DNA of 64,000 bases, from the NCBI GenBank assembly GCA_017416915.1, contig JAFQAN010000006.1:1-64000 (forward strand). The letters are read 5' to 3'. The stretch is from Alistipes sp. Lineage in GTDB: Bacteria; Bacteroidota; Bacteroidia; Bacteroidales; Rikenellaceae. Position 1 is the first letter of the stretch, and every line of letters begins with the position of its first letter. Shown here in pieces: positions 1-63,751 of the stretch. Position numbers and translations under genes: made by a program. Below the pieces are notes generated by a model, which was given only the letters and a program-made list of their open reading frames with translations, ran no database searches and was not told the DNA's origin.

Positions 1-11
1 ATCACGTCAAG
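1..11 (+). repeat. 3' end of a hairpin repeat cut by the window edge
   Basis: The first 11 bases match the 3' terminal stem of the hairpin repeat family described at 23581-23707 (compare ATCACGACAAG at 63612-63622). Two bases separate it from the next copy, the same tandem arrangement as at 63499-63751. The rest of this copy lies outside the window. Confidence 0.6.
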
Positions 12-12
12 G

Positions 13-140
13 GCTTGGTGTCAGAAGGGCGCCGAGTGCTACACTCGGCAAAAATGCCGTCGATGGGTAGTACTAAGGCGTACGTCCCATTGACGGCATT
101 TTTTGTTAGGGGACGCAATCGACCCCTTATCACACCAAGC
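13..140 (+). repeat. Hairpin repeat, AAGGG type, copy 1
   Basis: This is a 128-bp element closed by GCTTGGTGT (13-21) and ACACCAAGC (132-140). Inside come AAGGG (25-29) pairing with CCCTT (124-128), a private hairpin GCCGAGTG/CACTCGGC, and a long arm TGCCGTCgATGGG pairing with CCCATtGACGGCA. The tip is the conserved GTAC-loop-GTAC. It differs from the copy at 63624-63751 at three positions. Its right end abuts the T-tract of a minus-strand terminator-like hairpin (A7 at 141-147 on the plus strand). Confidence 0.85.
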
Positions 141-5828: not shown

Positions 5829-6044
5829 TTGGGAATGGCTGAGAGGCGCGCGATTGACTGGGAAAGACTGAGAAAGACTGAGAACACCTGGGAATGACTG
5901 AGAGGCGCGCCAACAAGACCACAAGACTGCGAGACCGCGAGACTGCGAGACCACGGGACGACGAGACTGCTGAAAAACCCAGGCGTTCTCAGGCGTTCTC
6001 AGGCGTTCTCAGTCGTGCGTGGCAGTGCGCTATCGAGCGTGATT
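5829..6044 (+). repeat. Low-complexity foldback arms of composite repeat 1
   Basis: The left arm (about 5829-5912) carries degenerate decamers such as GAGAAAGACT and the motif GGCGCGCC. The middle (about 5913-5970) is an octamer-like run of GAGACnnCGAGAC. The right arm (about 5980-6024) carries CAGGCGTTCT decamers, roughly the reverse complement of the left arm. The hairpin repeat at 6045 follows directly. No gene is seen between 5720 and 6248. Confidence 0.75.
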
Positions 6045-6174
6045 GTTTGGCGTCAGAAGGGTTGCAGATGTGTTCTATCGCAAAAGAGAGTGCCGTGGGA
6101 TAGTACTAAAACGTACAGCCCACGGCACTCTACTTTTTGGGATAGGACGCAGATGCGCCCTTATCACGCCAAAC
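6045..6174 (+). repeat. Hairpin repeat, AAGGG type, copy 2
   Basis: It is closed by GTTTGGCGT (6045-6053) and ACGCCAAAC (6166-6174). GAAGGG pairs with CCCTT, an internal loop holds GCAGATG on both sides, and AGTGCCGTGGG pairs with CCCACGGCACT under a GTAC-TAAAAC-GTAC tip. The stem sequence differs from the other copies but stays paired. The right end abuts the T-tract of the exbD terminator. Confidence 0.85.
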
Positions 6175-6248: not shown

Positions 6249-6710
6249 TTAGTTGTTCTCGACAGCTCTTGCTGCATAAGAGATAGACAACGCGTCTGCC
6301 TTACGCAACTCCTGCTTTACAGCCGTCAGCTTACCTACGGTAGCACCTTCGTCCACGCGCAAGTTTACTGTCAATGACTGCACATCCATCTTCTTGGTTA
6401 CTGCCGAAGCAGCCACAAAGTTCTGGATATCGGCAACATCACCAGTCTGGTCGTTGAGCTGAATCATCAACGCATCACCCTCCTGGCCCTTAGCACTCAG
6501 GGGTTTACCCATCCAAACATTTACTAAATTCTTCTTATCGAGCTCCGTAATCTCATGTGCCTCTGGCATCGCAACGGTTACCAAAGGATCTGTCTCACGC
6601 ATGGTCGTTGCCGCCATGAAGAAGAACAGAAGCATGAAGATAATATCGGGAAGCGACGATGTCGATAGCGCGGGCACCTCTTTCTTGCCCTTCTTTGCCA
6701 TTACTGCCAT
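6249..6710 (-). CDS. exbD: ExbD/TolR-family protein
   Basis: A protein of 153 residues with one N-terminal membrane helix and a periplasmic domain. It is the stator-type partner of ExbB that couples the proton gradient to TonB-type work at the outer membrane. The helix SLPDIIFMLLFFFMAATT carries the Asp needed for proton movement in this family. The periplasmic part looks like a compact ExbD fold. A second in-frame Met three codons later is an alternative start. It begins two bases after the stop of the other exbD, so the two are translated together as the last genes of the operon. Confidence 0.88.
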   Translation of the reverse strand: MAVMAKKGKKEVPALSTSSLPDIIFMLLFFFMAATTMRETDPLVTVAMPEAHEITELDKKNLVNVWMGKPLSAKGQEGDALMIQLNDQTGDVADIQNFVAASAVTKKMDVQSLTVNLRVDEGATVGKLTAVKQELRKADALSISYAARAVENN

Positions 6711-6712
6711 AA

Positions 6713-7309
6713 CTACTTCTTTGTTTGATCGTTAGGCTCAGCCTCAGATATTCGCATAGGAACAGCCTTACGGATGTTATTTGCCTGAATATCCTCCAAC
6801 TCGCCGTACTTCTTACCATATACCTTCAATGAGATATCATCGCGATAGAGGTTGAAAGCGTGCGTAAGCTCATCCTGAACCTGCAAGTAAATCTTATACT
6901 TGGTCTCGTCATCGGCTTTAAGCGACACCAAACCCTCGCTGATATCGTAGTTCATACCGTCGATTTCGGTAGCCTTCTTAGCCGAACGATCGGGCAATGT
7001 AAGGAAGTTGTAAACCTCCTGCGACAAGCGTGAATGGCGACCGTTACGTCTAAGATCGTTAGGCACGTACTCATCGGTACCCACCATGATCATACCACTC
7101 TTTGACACGTTCACTTTGAGAACGTTACGCTCGTTTACATCGACGTCGTTCTGTTGCTCGGTAGTATCGACCCATTTAGGAAGCGTACGCTTCATACCAG
7201 TATCGACATCCATCGTAGTAGTAACCAAGAAGAATATCAACAGCAAGAACGCAATATCCGCCATTGAGCTGGAATTGATCTCACCAGCCTTTTTCTTTCC
7301 TCTTGCCAT
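6713..7309 (-). CDS. exbD: ExbD/TolR-family protein, larger paralogue
   Basis: An ExbD-like protein of 198 residues: a short cytoplasmic tail rich in Lys, a membrane helix MADIAFLLLIFFLVTTT with the conserved Asp, and a periplasmic domain longer than usual (ExbD is typically about 140 residues). The extra length lies in the middle, around residues 80-150. Two different ExbD subunits next to one ExbB are common in Bacteroidota and may form a mixed stator, which is inference. It is five bases from the preceding gene and two bases from the following one. Confidence 0.88.
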   Translation of the reverse strand: MARGKKKAGEINSSSMADIAFLLLIFFLVTTTMDVDTGMKRTLPKWVDTTEQQNDVDVNERNVLKVNVSKSGMIMVGTDEYVPNDLRRNGRHSRLSQEVYNFLTLPDRSAKKATEIDGMNYDISEGLVSLKADDETKYKIYLQVQDELTHAFNLYRDDISLKVYGKKYGELEDIQANNIRKAVPMRISEAEPNDQTKK

Positions 7310-7314
7310 ACTAA

Positions 7315-8286
7315 TTACGATTTAAATGTGCCACGAACAGCTGAGTAAATTGCTGCCAAAGCTGCACCTACGAAAGCAATATAAGTTACCAAGATACATA
7401 CGTCGGCGGCCATATACTCAAACTCGCCGAATACGGTACGTGTAGCGGGATCGTTACCAACACCAAGGGGCAGACCCTTAACATCGTAAAGAACCGTACC
7501 ATCAGCCCAGCCGTGACCAGCTGCTACGAAGTAAGCGATGCCTATGATAGCAACGACAACAACCAGTGATACGAGAGCCTTAACGACACCGCCCTTGCTC
7601 TGGAACATACCCAAAATAGCCTGGAAGACAACAAAGACAACAGCAAATACCATCAAGAAGTAGAACCACATGATGTTGATGCTGATAGCCTGAGCCAAAG
7701 CGCCTACGTTCTCTGCATCCTTCTCTGACTGAGCCATAGCCTCCTCGATAGCGGGGATATTCTCCGACCAAGCTACCTCGTTATCACGACGAGTCTTCAA
7801 CTCTGCCTCAACCTTGGCATACTCCTCGGCAACCTTCTGAGCCTCCTCGTAAGCCCTCTTCTGTGAGCCATTCTTGTACTTTACATCCTTCAACTCGTCG
7901 AGAGTTGCCTTTGCCTCGTCGTAAGCAGCCTGCTGCTCAGCAACCTTAGCCTCCAACTCCGAAATAGCCACCTTGTTCTCCTCGCGCTTTGCCTTTACCT
8001 CATCAAGAGTCAAGCCAGGGAAAGTGGTCTCCATTTCAGCCTTATACTGTGTTGCGAACACAGTCTTCAAAGCCTCGATACCCTCCTCAGTAGTTCTGAC
8101 GGGCATAGGCTTACCATCCTCACTGTTGATAGGCTCGCCGTTCTCGTCGAACTGCTGAACAAGAGCCATATTACCAGCGATCTTGGCTGACTCGGGGGCG
8201 CTTGCACCAACATAGATGGCGTAGCCCATCAAGGCAACCGAGATAACGGCAACGATGAGGAATACTATTCTATTAATATTTTTCAT
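7315..8286 (-). CDS. Four-helix coiled-coil membrane protein of the ExbBD operon
   Basis: A protein of 323 residues without a recognised domain. There is a membrane helix at about 7-29, then a charged region with a predicted coiled coil (about 95-180, rich in Glu, Lys and Ala). Three more hydrophobic helices follow at about 205-228, 236-257 and 292-315. It sits between exbB and exbD with short gaps (32 and 5 bases), so it very probably works with the motor complex, perhaps as an extra membrane subunit. That role is inferred only from position. Similar uncharacterised proteins occur at this place in other Bacteroidales. Confidence 0.8.
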   Translation of the reverse strand: MKNINRIVFLIVAVISVALMGYAIYVGASAPESAKIAGNMALVQQFDENGEPINSEDGKPMPVRTTEEGIEALKTVFATQYKAEMETTFPGLTLDEVKAKREENKVAISELEAKVAEQQAAYDEAKATLDELKDVKYKNGSQKRAYEEAQKVAEEYAKVEAELKTRRDNEVAWSENIPAIEEAMAQSEKDAENVGALAQAISINIMWFYFLMVFAVVFVVFQAILGMFQSKGGVVKALVSLVVVVAIIGIAYFVAAGHGWADGTVLYDVKGLPLGVGNDPATRTVFGEFEYMAADVCILVTYIAFVGAALAAIYSAVRGTFKS

Positions 8287-23188: not shown

Positions 23189-23362
23189 GAGGGGCGTGAT
23201 TGGCTGGGTGGCGCGCGGTTGGCTGAGGGGCGCGCGATTGGCTGGATGGCGCGCGGTTGGCTGGGTTGCGCGCGATTGGCTGGGTTGCGCGCGATTGGCT
23301 GAGAATGACTGAGAACGACTGAGAACGACTGGGAATGCCTGAGAACGCCTGAGAGGCGCGCC
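23189..23362 (+). repeat. Left arm of composite repeat 2: 18-19-mers and decamers
   Basis: Five to six units of about 18-19 bp built on GGCGCGCGATTGGCTG are followed by GAGAACGACT-type decamers and end in GGCGCGCC (23355-23362). The decamers are the reverse complement of the right arm at 23536-23580. Confidence 0.8.
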
Positions 23363-23372
23363 GTTCACTACC

Positions 23373-23525
23373 GCGAGACAGCGAGACGACGAGACGACGA
23401 GACAACGAGACAACGAGACGACGAGACGACGAGACGACGAGACGACGAGACAACGAGACAACGAGACGACGAGACGACGAGACGACGAGACGACGGGACA
23501 ACGGGACAACGAGACCACGGGACCC
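23373..23525 (+). repeat. Octamer tandem repeat (GACGACGA/GACAACGA)
   Basis: Roughly eighteen units of period 8 alternate GACGACGA and GACAACGA. All frames stay open, which creates false ORFs on the minus strand. The tract sits between the inverted decamer arms of composite repeat 2 and is likely length-variable. Confidence 0.85.
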
Positions 23526-23535
23526 CTGAAAAACA

Positions 23536-23580
23536 CAGTCGTTCTCAGGCATTCTCAGTCGTGCGAGGCTGTGCGAGGCA
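23536..23580 (+). repeat. Right arm of composite repeat 2
   Basis: CAGTCGTTCT, CAGGCATTCT and CAGTCGTGCG units are followed by GTGCGAGGCT/GTGCGAGGCA decamers that run straight into the hairpin repeat at 23581. Confidence 0.8.
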
Positions 23581-23707
23581 GCTTGGCGTCAGAGTGGTGC
23601 AGATGTGGTGCCAAGTCGAAGTTTGGCTGGATGGGGGTGTACTTGGCGTACATCCCCATTCAGACGAACGAGCTTGGTGCCGCAGATGCGCCGCTATCAC
23701 GCCAAGC
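23581..23707 (+). repeat. Hairpin repeat, AGTGG type, copy 3 (type example)
   Basis: A 127-bp element. GCTTGGCGT (23581-23589) pairs with ACGCCAAGC (23699-23707) and AGTGG pairs with CCGCT. An internal loop has GCAGATG on both strands, GGTGCCAAG pairs with CTTGGTGCC, and CTGgATGGGG pairs with CCCCATtCAG below the GTAC tip. It is almost identical to the copies at 50578 and 55984. Bases 23708-23720 repeat the last 13 bases, a remnant of a tandem neighbour. The minus-strand AraC gene ends three bases further on. Confidence 0.9.
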
Positions 23708-23722
23708 TATCACGCCAAGCAA

Positions 23723-24610
23723 TTAAATGATGATGCGCTTCTTTACAAATTGCTCCCTAAACTGTTGGGGAGTGAAACCCCTGAGTCTCTTGAATATACG
23801 ATTAAAATTCGAGATATTATTAAAGCCACATTTATAGGCTATATCGGCAATCGAGTTAGTGGGTTCATCTACAAGTAGTCGCGCCACAGCACTCACTCGT
23901 ATCTCATTGAGACAGTCGATAAAGTTGCTGCCTGTGCGTATCTTGATAAAGCGGCTGAACGACGAGGTACTCATATTGACCAAACGAGCCACATCGGCGA
24001 GTGTTATACGTTCGGCATAGTGCTGATGCAGATACTCCATAACGAGTTTCACACGGCGCGAATCATAGACCTGCGCACCTTCGGAGAACATCTCGTGCGA
24101 CAGCTCCTCCGCCCTCTCATCTGAGGCCAAGAGCTGCAACATACGCAAAAATATGAGCATCGAGTTAAACTTATCGTCGGAGTGCAACAACTCCTGTAAC
24201 AGAGGCTTAACAGCGATGATGGTGTCGCGCGAAAACGACAAGCCATACGCCGCACGTGCCATCATACGACTGATGAGGCGAAACTGCTTCTTGGCAAGGA
24301 GTCCTCCCTCGAAGAGGTCGCCATTCATCTGTATCGTAATCTCATAGATGTCCTGCGAAGTGCAATTGTGATTTACCCACGCGTGTTCGAGGTTACGGCC
24401 CGTGATAAGCACAAGTTCCAGGTCGTCAATCTCTGCCGAGTGGTCGCCAACAATACGTCGCGCACCTCGCGCCCCCTCGATATAGTTGAGTTCGTAGAGC
24501 GAGTGGATGTGTATCGGGAAGTTGAACGACGACTTATGGCGCTCAAATATCGCAAAACTCTCCTCCTCCTTTACTGGGGGTATTTCGGTAAGGACTCCAA
24601 TACTTGCCAT
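23723..24610 (-). CDS. AraC-family transcriptional regulator of the mannan locus
   Basis: A cytoplasmic regulator of 295 residues. The N-terminal half (about 20-100) looks like a cupin-type sugar-sensing domain (FNFPIHIHSLYELNYIEG). The C-terminal AraC/XylS DNA-binding domain (about 195-290) has two helix-turn-helix units: ITLADVARLVNMSTSSFSRF and NSIADIAYKCGFNNISNFNR, followed by GFTPQQFREQ. It starts four bases after the GH26 gene and is co-transcribed with it, divergent from the rest of the mannan locus, so it probably controls both promoters. The stop codon lies three bases from a hairpin repeat. Confidence 0.9.
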   Translation of the reverse strand: MASIGVLTEIPPVKEEESFAIFERHKSSFNFPIHIHSLYELNYIEGARGARRIVGDHSAEIDDLELVLITGRNLEHAWVNHNCTSQDIYEITIQMNGDLFEGGLLAKKQFRLISRMMARAAYGLSFSRDTIIAVKPLLQELLHSDDKFNSMLIFLRMLQLLASDERAEELSHEMFSEGAQVYDSRRVKLVMEYLHQHYAERITLADVARLVNMSTSSFSRFIKIRTGSNFIDCLNEIRVSAVARLLVDEPTNSIADIAYKCGFNNISNFNRIFKRLRGFTPQQFREQFVKKRIII

Positions 24611-50300: not shown

Positions 50301-50577
50301 GAGACAACGAGACAACGAGACTGCTGAAAAACCCAGGCATTCTCAGGCGTTCTCAGCTGTGCGAGGCTGTGCGAGGCTGTGCGCTATCGAGCGTGGTTGA
50401 TTAGAGAATTTAGGGAAAATAGGGAGTTTAGGGATGTGCGGGCGATGCCCGCTACAAACCAAGTATCTGACGTCTTACCGCTAAATCGAGCGGCGCGCTC
50501 CCTAACCTCTCTAAATTCCCTAAACTCACTAAACTCCCCACTAACTGCGCGCTATCGCCACGCTCCCAAGCGAGATT
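50301..50577 (+). repeat. Arms of composite repeat 3, with a nested inverted repeat
   Basis: GAGACAACGAGAC units (50301-50321) are followed by CAGGCATTCT/CAGGCGTTCT decamers and GTGCGAGGCT units (50334-50395). Between two copies of a GCGCTATCG motif (50381 and 50549) lies an extra segment whose ends are inverted: TTAGAGAATTTAGGG (50402-) against CCCTAAACTCACTAAACTC and TCTCTAAATTCCCTAAACTC (50508-50537), with the hairpin GCGGGCGATGCCCGC in between. No real gene is seen here. Confidence 0.7.
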
Positions 50578-50704
50578 GCTTGGCGTCAGAGTGGTGCAGA
50601 TGTGGTGCCAAGTCGAAGTTTGGCTGGATGGGGGTGTACTTGGCGTACATCCCCATTCAGACGAACGAGCTTGGTGCCGCAGATGCGCCGCTATCACGCC
50701 AAGC
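50578..50704 (+). repeat. Hairpin repeat, AGTGG type, copy 4
   Basis: Practically identical to the copy at 23581-23707, including the closing GCTTGGCGT/ACGCCAAGC stem. It is followed by CCCCTTATCAC (50707-50717), which matches the 3' end of AAGGG-type copies and suggests a lost tandem neighbour. The rlmH gene (minus) ends 19 bases to the right. Confidence 0.9.
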
Positions 50705-50722: not shown

Positions 50723-51196
50723 TTACTCGTGGTGGTAGGGCTCGTGATTAATAATCGTAAATGCTCGGTAGAGCTGCTCGGTAAATATAGCACGAACAAT
50801 CTGGTGCGAAAAGGTCATCTTCGAGAGAGAGAGCTTGGCATCAGCGCGCTGGTAGAGAGCATCCGAAAAGCCATAAGGACCACCTATGATAAAGACAAGA
50901 CGCTTGGTGCCTGACGCCATACGGCGCTGCATAAGGTCGGCAAACTCGATAGAGCGCAGCTCCATACCATGCTCATCGAGCAGCATAACGTAATCGGTAT
51001 CTGTGAGTTGCTTCATTATCGCCTCGCCCTCGATGCGCTTCTGCTCTACAACCGACAGCTTCTTGGTGTTGCGCACATCGGCAATCGTCGTAGTGGCAAA
51101 GCGAACATAGCGGTTGATGCGCTTGGCATACATATCAACCAACGCCTCAACCTCCCTCATATCGGTTTTACCGACAACGATAAACTCAATATTCAT
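50723..51196 (-). CDS. rlmH: 23S rRNA (pseudouridine-1915-N3)-methyltransferase
   Basis: A SPOUT-class methyltransferase of 157 residues that methylates pseudouridine 1915 in helix 69 of 23S rRNA, using S-adenosylmethionine. FIIGGPYGFSDALYQRAD with the knot glycines and the C-terminal SLSKMTFSHQIVRAIFTEQLYRA are conserved through the end HHE. LLDEHGMELRSIEFA is the usual central motif. Normal length. It lies 40 bases after the GH2-like gene and is probably co-transcribed with it. Confidence 0.96.
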   Translation of the reverse strand: MNIEFIVVGKTDMREVEALVDMYAKRINRYVRFATTTIADVRNTKKLSVVEQKRIEGEAIMKQLTDTDYVMLLDEHGMELRSIEFADLMQRRMASGTKRLVFIIGGPYGFSDALYQRADAKLSLSKMTFSHQIVRAIFTEQLYRAFTIINHEPYHHE

Positions 51197-55719: not shown

Positions 55720-55983
55720 AGGCGCGCGATTGGCTGGGGCGCGATTGGCTGGGGCGCGATTGGCTGAGAATGACTGGGAATGCCTGAGAAAGACTGAGAA
55801 AGACTGGGAAGCGCGCCAATGAGACTGCGAGACTACGAGACAACGAGAGTACAAAAAAAATGCGGGCATCGCCCGCAATATCCCGTAGTCCCGAAGTCCC
55901 GTGTTCTCGTAAAAAACACAGGCGTTCTCAGGCATTCTCAGGCGTTCCCAGTCGTGCGAGGCAGTGCGAGGCAGTGCGAGGCA
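55720..55983 (+). repeat. Foldback arms of composite repeat 4
   Basis: The left arm (about 55720-55817) has GGCGCGCGATTGGCTG and GCGCGATTGGCTGG units, then GAGAATGACT/GAGAAAGACT decamers and GCGCGCC. The middle has GAGACTGCGAGAC-like units and a perfect hairpin TGCGGGCATCGCCCGCA (55861-55877). The right arm (55918-55983) has CAGGCGTTCT decamers and three GTGCGAGGCA units leading into the hairpin repeat. Confidence 0.8.
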
Positions 55984-56110
55984 GCTTGGCGTCAGAGTGG
56001 TGCAGATGTGGTGCCAAGTCGAAGTTTGGCTGGATGGGGGTGTACTTGGCGTACATCCCCATTCAGACGGACGAGCTTGGTGCCGCAGATGCGCCGCTAT
56101 CACGCCAAGC
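55984..56110 (+). repeat. Hairpin repeat, AGTGG type, copy 5
   Basis: Differs from the copy at 23581 by one substitution in the stretch examined (ACGGACGAGC for ACGAACGAGC). This is the only copy whose right side is not next to the 3' end of a minus-strand gene or terminator. Confidence 0.9.
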
Positions 56111-63351: not shown

Positions 63352-63498
63352 CCCAGGCACTCTCAGACGCCCCAAGTTTTCCCTGTCGTTCTCAGTCGTT
63401 CTCAGTCGTTCTCAGTCGTTCTCAGTCGTTCCCAGTCGTTCCCAGTCGTTCTCAGCCGTTCTCAGTCTTTCTCAGGCGTTCTCAGTCGTGCGAGGCCA
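63352..63498 (+). repeat. Decamer tandem repeat of composite repeat 5
   Basis: About ten units of CAGTCGTTCT or close variants (63402-63498), preceded by looser CAGGCACTCT and CAGACGCCCC. Only the right-arm type is present here; no left arm is seen. It ends in GTGCGAGGC directly before the hairpin repeat. Confidence 0.85.
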
Positions 63499-63622
63499 CT
63501 TGTCGTCAGAGTGGTGCAGATGTACCGCCGATAAAGAGATTGGGCTGGATGGATAGTACTGTGCGTACATTCCATTCAGCCCAATGATTGAGGCGGCGCA
63601 GATGTGCCACTATCACGACAAG
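63499..63622 (+). repeat. Hairpin repeat, AGTGG type, copy 6
   Basis: It is closed by CTTGTCGT (63499-63506) and ACGACAAG (63615-63622), a compensatory change relative to CTTGGCGT/ACGCCAAG. AGTGG pairs perfectly with CCACT. CCGCC/GGCGG and ATTGGGCTGgATGG/CCATtCAGCCCAAT form the upper stem below a GTAC tip. The stem sequence is unlike that of copies 3-5. Confidence 0.88.
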
Positions 63623-63623
63623 T

Positions 63624-63751
63624 GCTTGGTGTCAGAAGGGTGCCGAGTGCTACACTCGGCAAAAATGCCGTCGATGGGTAGTACTAAGGCGTACGTCCCA
63701 TTGACGGCATTTTTTGTTAGGGGACGCAAACGACCCCTTATCGCACCAAGC
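63624..63751 (+). repeat. Hairpin repeat, AAGGG type, copy 7
   Basis: Differs from the copy at 13-140 at three of 128 positions; one change (TATCGCACC) turns a closing A-T pair into a G-T wobble. It follows copy 6 after one base. The ileS stop codon (minus) lies eight bases to the right. Confidence 0.88.

Follow-up and report, generated by a model that had tools for sequence, protein, structure and literature searches.

What kind of element is the hairpin at 23581..23707 (+ strand) of an Alistipes contig, why does it sit where it does, and does it serve the neighbouring gene or its own spread? A first-pass annotation had described it as a member of a family that shares a fold rather than a sequence. 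Short palindromic repeats are common in bacteria, and how they spread and whether they are functional is mostly open. The window, which here means the whole 64-kb stretch of DNA that was analysed, is part of contig C21 of a 1.97-Mb genome in 42 contigs with a completeness of 92.84%.

Hairpin copies in the window

The seven complete copies announced by the first-pass annotation, at 13, 6045, 23581, 50578, 55984, 63499 and 63624, are all present, but the covariance model starts the sixth at 63498. All are on the + strand, at 13..140, 6045..6174, 23581..23707, 50578..50704, 55984..56110, 63498..63623 and 63624..63751, the last two forming a head-to-tail pair. The copy thought to be cut at position 1 was recovered as well: bases 1..12 (+ strand, ATCACGTCAAGG) are the right end of a further copy and lie immediately before the next one, as at tandem junctions on other contigs. 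The count of seven stands, but it represents four sequence types and not seven independent cases. Copies 23581 and 50578 are identical over 127 bases, the copy at 55984 differs from them in one base, and copies 13 and 63624 are near-identical. Copy 13 is of the AAGGG class and has an additional stem (GCCGAGTG..CACTCGGC); copy 23581 is of the AGTGG class, and at its right end GCTATCACGCCAA is duplicated (23693-23705 and 23706-23718).

The common plan was also described correctly. The closing stem changes as stated, the second stem is AAGGG/CCCTT or AGTGG/CC(A/G)CT, GCAGATG stands on both sides in five of the seven copies (in most, according to the annotation), and the tip pattern GTACT(n)CGTAC is found seven times in the 64 kb, always on the + strand and always within a copy. 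Besides the window at bases 1-12, contigs C12, C14, C17, C21, C22, C23, C28 and C38 of G000 have ends inside a hairpin copy or some 20 bases from one, which is expected if the assembly breaks at repeats. As a caution, such MAGs often have contigs that stop within these repeats.

Copy number and taxonomic range

The covariance-model search that the first-pass annotation had proposed was carried out with a model built from six rows (R1). It gave at least 149 matches in the genome itself at E≤1e-3, cut copies included, with 150 of 643 first-look candidates scored. From these, 148 of 149 were extracted; 144 have at least 110 bases and 139 are distinct. There are 37 adjacent same-strand pairs arranged head to tail, in which the AGTGG class stands to the left of the AAGGG class in 14 and to its right in 3.

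Further copies occur in 45 other genomes. The 46 genomes with R1 matches, out of 120 and including the one studied here, all belong to a single Rikenellaceae genus out of 48 genera, and 294 other genomes of the order gave no R1 match at E≤1e-5 with stricter filters. Among the genomes searched the hairpin family is restricted to one genus. A pattern scan of named genomes returned at least 62 stretches. Alistipes sp. or Rikenellaceae stands in the title of 57, many of which come from ruminant guts; one is Bacteroides and four are unrelated bacteria. The covariance search of these stretches used 55 of the 62, leaving out the four unrelated ones and L139, L147 and L157. The set of elements from other species comprises 156 distinct sequences. 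It had been pruned by hand of loci that occurred twice, of second matches to the reverse strand of one palindrome, and of truncated or the weakest matches.

That the first-pass annotation did not recognise the hairpin as a known family agrees with Rfam 15, which has no family at gathering score in the window or in seven loci; three weak matches in the composite described below are far below gathering (the best has E 0.15 and 19.7 bits, where the cut-off is 90). The open-access literature searched yielded no description of repeats of this kind from Alistipes or Rikenellaceae, which is weak evidence of absence. Carriage by a phage or plasmid was rejected, since the 421-bp composite has no match among plasmid or phage records and the exact 21-letter element pattern has none in IMG/VR.

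Fold and covariation

RNA folding of five copies gives z values of -8.5 to -12.7, with none of 200 shuffles equally stable in each case; copies 13 and 63624 fold with an additional branch. When four copies were folded as DNA on both strands, the + strand was the more stable one in all four. Among 200 distinct end pairs from this and other species, 1638 of the 1800 cells of the nine closing pairs hold a standard pair; 1000 reshuffles of the right arms averaged 1352 and reached 1400 at most. Two mismatches are kept and act as a control within the same data: of 201 distinct ends, 94 from this genome and 107 from others, 137 have C.C at pair 10 and 176 have G.A at pair 12.

Because the copies are related, a stricter test of covariation was done at single orthologous positions. 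Behind tsf (12 rows) an arm pairs with its own partner at 8.00 of 9 positions and with a partner from another species at 5.65, and none of 20,000 permutations reached the observed sum; two of these rows (L194, L202) are second copies behind the tsf stop and one (L196) is out of register, and all three were kept. Behind fba (11 rows) the values are 8.82 and 7.70 of 9, with 1 of 20,000 permutations. The covariation of the stems holds up under this control. Together with the reshuffles of the closing stem, these permutations bear out the claim that the fold is kept through compensatory change.

The wobble pairs are unevenly divided between the strands. Read on the + strand, G.T outnumbers A.C by 804 to 125 in the copies of this genome, with more G.T in 139 of 139 (the count is symmetric for both strands), and by 730 to 155 in other species, where 143 of 156 elements have more G.T, 4 show the reverse and 9 tie.

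Complementary arms that change together would also arise if no fold were selected and the palindromes were renewed by template switching at the replication fork, which copies one arm into the other. We find this barely credible. Such copying should erase the C.C at pair 10, the G.A at pair 12 and the kept internal loop, and it leaves the G.T/A.C asymmetry unexplained.

Composite context

In this genome the hairpin is one end of a larger composite. An array of TTCYCAGNC motifs stands before the hairpin in 82 of 99 clusters with enough upstream sequence and after it in none, and the arrays form long inverted repeats of their own. Before hairpin 23581, all on the + strand, a left arm of 10-bp units (TGAGAACGAC, 23300..23354), of which 23325-23351 is complementary to 23536-23562 (93%), is followed by an 8-bp array (CGAGACNA, 23374..23522) between the arms and by a right arm of GTTCTCAGNC and then GTGCGAGGC units (23536..23580) that extends up to the hairpin. 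Also on the + strand, composite arrays precede hairpin 6045 (5856..6023, motif positions), hairpin 50578 (50308..50577, with a AAGCGAGAT module), hairpin 55984 (55762..55983) and the pair 63498/63624 (63389..63487, a 10-bp array with ten TTCYCAGNC matches at 10-bp spacing).

The intergenic arrays of 8-10 bp units (CGAGACNA, GTTCTCAGNC, GTGCGAGGCT) are seen at 23300-23562, 55762-55983 and 63389-63487, and mini-hairpins GCGGGCGATGCCCGC and GCGGGCATCGCCCGC lie at 50438 and 55862 inside further array palindromes. The exact two-unit GTTCTCAGNC pattern is present in 2 of 76 genomes of the genus, and in other species a hairpin of this kind is preceded by other arrays or flanks. Outside this genome, the left flanks of L036, L177, L171 and others have, by eye, an AGCAC..ACCYA-like stretch before the hairpin. 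Judging from such common left flanks, the element may be longer than the hairpin.

Position behind stop codons

Genes were predicted with a custom codon-score finder. In this genome the right neighbour lies on the opposite strand in 83 of 97 clusters that have a predicted right neighbour, which means that the gene ends towards the hairpin. Its stop is within -16 to +20 bp in 70 of these 83 clusters, with a median distance of 2 bp. The stop is overlapped by exactly one base in 17 of the 83, and in four clusters with a gap of -11 (for example C5:137993) the gene runs 11 bases into the element, which provides the stop codon. The 84 clusters with both neighbours comprise 42 between convergent genes, 30 with both genes against the element, 12 with both along it and none between divergent genes; the last value says little, as divergent genes make up only 2 of the 47 neighbouring pairs in the window.

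Three of the six clusters in the window are at a stop (23581, 50578 and 63498/63624). An AraC-like regulator gene (23723..24610, - strand; family matches all below curated cut-offs) has its stop 15 bp from hairpin 23581, and the stop of an rlmH-type gene (50723..51196, - strand; NF000990 above cut-off) is 18 bp from hairpin 50578. The gene at 6249..6710 (- strand, no NCBIfam match) ends 74 bp from hairpin 6045 and does not abut it, and to the right of copies 13 and 55984 the next gene lies on the element strand.

The hairpin can follow orthologous genes in other species too. Matches to tsf and fba occur in 64 and 68 of the 76 genomes of the genus, and an abutting hairpin was found in 12 of the best 30 tsf loci and 11 of the best 30 fba loci; several others carry, by eye, an ordinary hairpin with a T-run instead. 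Of 148 elements from other species, 95 have a right flank that opens with TA and 113 end in T. This final T can complete TTA, a TAA stop on the other strand.

Orientation relative to replication

On contigs of this genome with at least two copies, 142 of 145 copies are on the majority strand of their contig. The corresponding values in two other genomes, among the matches listed, are 66 of 72 (G040) and 63 of 71 (G041). The strand that carries the elements is low in G and high in A (GC skew -0.021 and AT skew +0.043 over 442 kb), and the sign agrees in 13 of 14 contigs with a majority strand and more than 10 kb read. Genes expected to inform on direction point the same way: rplB runs against the elements in all three genomes where it was located, out of five searched (none found in G000 and G017), as do the 5S rRNA on G040:C10 and, on C5, rpsB-tsf and rplM-rpsI (identified by eye). 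The genes next to the hairpins appear to be read in the direction of replication.

Some observations are contrary to this naming of the leading strand. Ten of 15 tRNA genes lie on the element strand, the contigs used for the count below have in sum 362 kb of coding sequence along and 310 kb against the elements, and the GC skew of the window drifts from -0.10 to +0.015 though all its copies are on the + strand. In copy-centred stretches 170 kb of coding sequence is along and 207 kb against the elements. Since the coding totals disagree in direction, gene strand bias is not the source of the element bias, and the label 'leading' rests on skew, rplB, rRNA and ribosomal genes.

With this label, an abutting hairpin is found at 33 of 136 leading but only 2 of 150 lagging transcription-unit ends (Fisher p 5e-10), counted over four contig stretches of two genomes (791 kb; one contig of this genome, the window, and parts or all of two G040 contigs) that were all known to hold copies.

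Orthologous sites and mobility

Sites A to D are orthologous positions that are occupied by the element in some genomes but not in others; a site E, differing by a gene-sized stretch, was left out. At A and D the relative without the element has, by eye, a short intergenic gap and no obvious terminator. Extra bases accompany the hairpin at the compared sites, so that the joint is not a clean target duplication. Behind fba, G040 and its close relative G011 (92% DNA identity over the query) carry different hairpin classes. The near-identical copies that lie far apart within a genome, and the different closing stems that prevail in different species, point to spread or conversion within genomes. 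In L142, positions 6945-7343 hold, by eye, an apparent partial tandem triplication that includes a hairpin with another core. Other hairpins in L225, L231, L134 and L142, some of them like ordinary terminators, have in the gene sense a common tip TAYG(n)AGTA (by eye), which suggests a wider family of tips in the genus.

A mobile hairpin could move via the single-stranded lagging-strand template and insert 3' of TA. On that template only genes of the leading strand expose their stop as TAA or TAG; an element that starts with A or G would rebuild the stop and other insertions would be purged. Insertion of single-stranded DNA 3' of TA would produce both polarities and the TA joint in one step. 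The frequent TA in the right flank, the occupied and near-empty sites and the distant near-identical copies are in agreement with this, and the replication-strand bias expected of IS200/IS605-like insertions is present in the hairpin copies. We nevertheless judge it rather unlikely. The Y1 transposase (PF01797), the HUH enzyme expected with IS200/IS605-like elements and with REP/REPIN systems carrying RAYT, is present in only 1 of 76 genomes of the genus and not in this one, the lagging-strand template is not the strand that folds more stably, the compared sites lack a clean joint, with extra bases next to the hairpin, and purging does not explain why copies crowd at stops rather than anywhere between genes.

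In a variant that we regard as unlikely, the hairpin is a DNA element that is placed or kept only where a stop reads along the lagging-strand template; the direction of replication would license insertion or retention, and the stop would be completed by the element. If true, selfish spread and a function at gene ends would coincide in a structured DNA element that completes stops.

The TA joint is also reminiscent of an IS630/Tc1-mariner MITE that duplicates TA, the origin proposed for RUP. The length and the terminal complementarity would fit, TA is found at the right end in the proportion given above, and 25 of 116 single copies from other species have TA on both sides. Yet 42 of 124 left flanks have CA and 32 have TA, and DDE_3 (PF13358) is over its cut-off in none of the 76 genomes of the genus, with three weak matches below it and none in this genome. 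IS630/Tc1-mariner transposases recognise fixed end sequences, whereas the terminal stem of the hairpin varies and covaries. This origin accounts for neither polarity and is highly unlikely. A reverse transcriptase (PF00078), which a group II intron or retron would need, is absent from this genome and present in 26 of 76 genomes of the genus. Y1, reverse-transcriptase and IS630-type DDE classes were not adopted, none of these enzymes being found in this genome at its completeness. The first-pass annotation had offered an RNA element, folded single-stranded DNA or a mobile hairpin; these searches speak against the obvious mobile classes. An autonomous element between close copies was not adopted either, as the genes there look, by eye, like ordinary chromosomal ones.

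Possible role at gene ends

The reading that we tentatively prefer, with a probability of about 0.4, is that of an ERIC-like, genus-specific dispersed repeat acting as a 3'-end or terminator module of leading-strand transcription units. The hairpin probably marks the place where the neighbouring gene ends. The mRNA in gene sense, corresponding to the minus strand of the element, would run from the stop into the hairpin, often after a few bases, and the inner part of the hairpin usually resembles an intrinsic terminator. The hairpin may end transcription or tune the 3' end of the mRNA. Its near-absence from lagging-strand ends could reflect a need to keep the more stably folding, G.T-rich + strand off the lagging-strand template, or else a strand-specific copying process, and the near-identical copies would stem from a duplicative or conversion process within each genome. 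The direct basis is the place, the polarity, the range of one genus, the covariation, the presence and absence at sites and the terminator-like inner hairpin.

By a custom score, with no shuffle control, 224 of 295 distinct elements (101/139 own, 123/156 other) have a terminator-like inner hairpin on the minus strand and 154 of 295 (60/139 own, 94/156 other) have one on the plus strand. An earlier limit of 8 loop bases, which gave 14/139 and 19/156 on the minus strand, is unsuited to these stems and was replaced. Terminator-like ends are found at 21 of 30 leading ends with an element, 63 of 97 leading ends without one and 70 of 137 lagging ends, with no clear excess.

The main difficulty for a terminator module is that the G.T pairs occur on the strand that is absent from the mRNA of the gene; an mRNA element should show the reverse. 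Also against it are hairpin 6045, which is 74 bp from the stop, copies 13 and 55984, which have no right neighbour on the opposite strand, and sites A and D, where the relative that lacks the element has, by eye, no obvious terminator in its place.

The wobble excess would be explained by an RNA made from the + strand, against the neighbouring gene, which could be a small structured RNA or terminate head-on (antisense) transcription. The skewed base composition of this strand, which has fewer G and more A, should by our argument favour A.C and not G.T, and the conserved C.C and G.A mismatches are also compatible with such an RNA. It is distinctly unlikely, since terminator-like hairpins are rarer on the plus than on the minus strand and since leading ends that face a convergent gene carry the element in 13 of 66 cases, compared to 20 of 70 for other leading ends (summed). 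A role as an antisense guard was likewise not favoured, convergent ends not being enriched.

The terminator module and insertion into single-stranded DNA are not mutually exclusive. Three handles, namely stems that covary at orthologous positions, the exact place at stop codons and the strong bias to genes of one replication strand, together let experiment separate a function at gene ends from strand-specific insertion. The gene-end placement, the replication polarity, the single-genus range and the composite context go beyond what the first-pass annotation had described.

Comparison with known systems

In gross form the hairpin resembles ERIC, REP and Correia repeats. ERIC is described as a 127-bp intergenic sequence with a predicted single long stem-loop (PMC2267715), and it is reported to be co-transcribed and to affect mRNA in an orientation-dependent manner (PMC2229807). 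The enterobacterial ERIC (IRU, RU-1) is thus, by its description, alike in length, fold and intergenic location. However, it belongs to another clade. The Alistipes hairpin has a closing stem that covaries, copies that abut stops and one orientation relative to replication. REP sequences are likewise palindromes at the 3' ends of genes, and those lying no more than 15 nt from a stop codon reportedly stall ribosomes and reduce translation (PMC12306157). They are shorter, 20-40 bp (PMC3733652), and the Y1 transposase is nearly absent from the genus studied here.

Correia, ERIC and RUP repeats are listed with TA at their termini, and RUP was proposed to be a MITE of the IS630/Tc1-mariner class (PMC2229807). 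Like the hairpin, Correia/NEMIS and RUP are short and dispersed and have terminal inverted repeats with TA at the ends, but here TA on both sides is confined to the minority of copies given above and no IS630-type transposase exceeds the cut-off. Group IIC introns are a mobile class with a similar preference for gene ends; they are reported to insert just after terminators with a bias to the lagging strand (PMC8919778). The hairpin differs in that this genome has no reverse transcriptase, in its size of about 125 bp, in its sense opposite to the neighbouring gene and in the lack of an Rfam match in the window. Ordinary terminators as the target, as for these introns, are not favoured by sites A and D.

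Integron attC sites are structured hairpins behind stop codons as well. They have the core GTTRRRY/RYYYAAC and go with an integron integrase. In contrast, the genes between close copies of the Alistipes hairpin look, by eye, like ordinary chromosomal ones, and a GTT/AAC core was not seen by eye.

The hairpin is assigned to none of these families, and it was not filed under ERIC, REP or Correia because the partner enzymes tested were not found. As far as tested, it is distinguished by the combination of a covarying closing stem, a joint at the stop codon and a polarity relative to replication.
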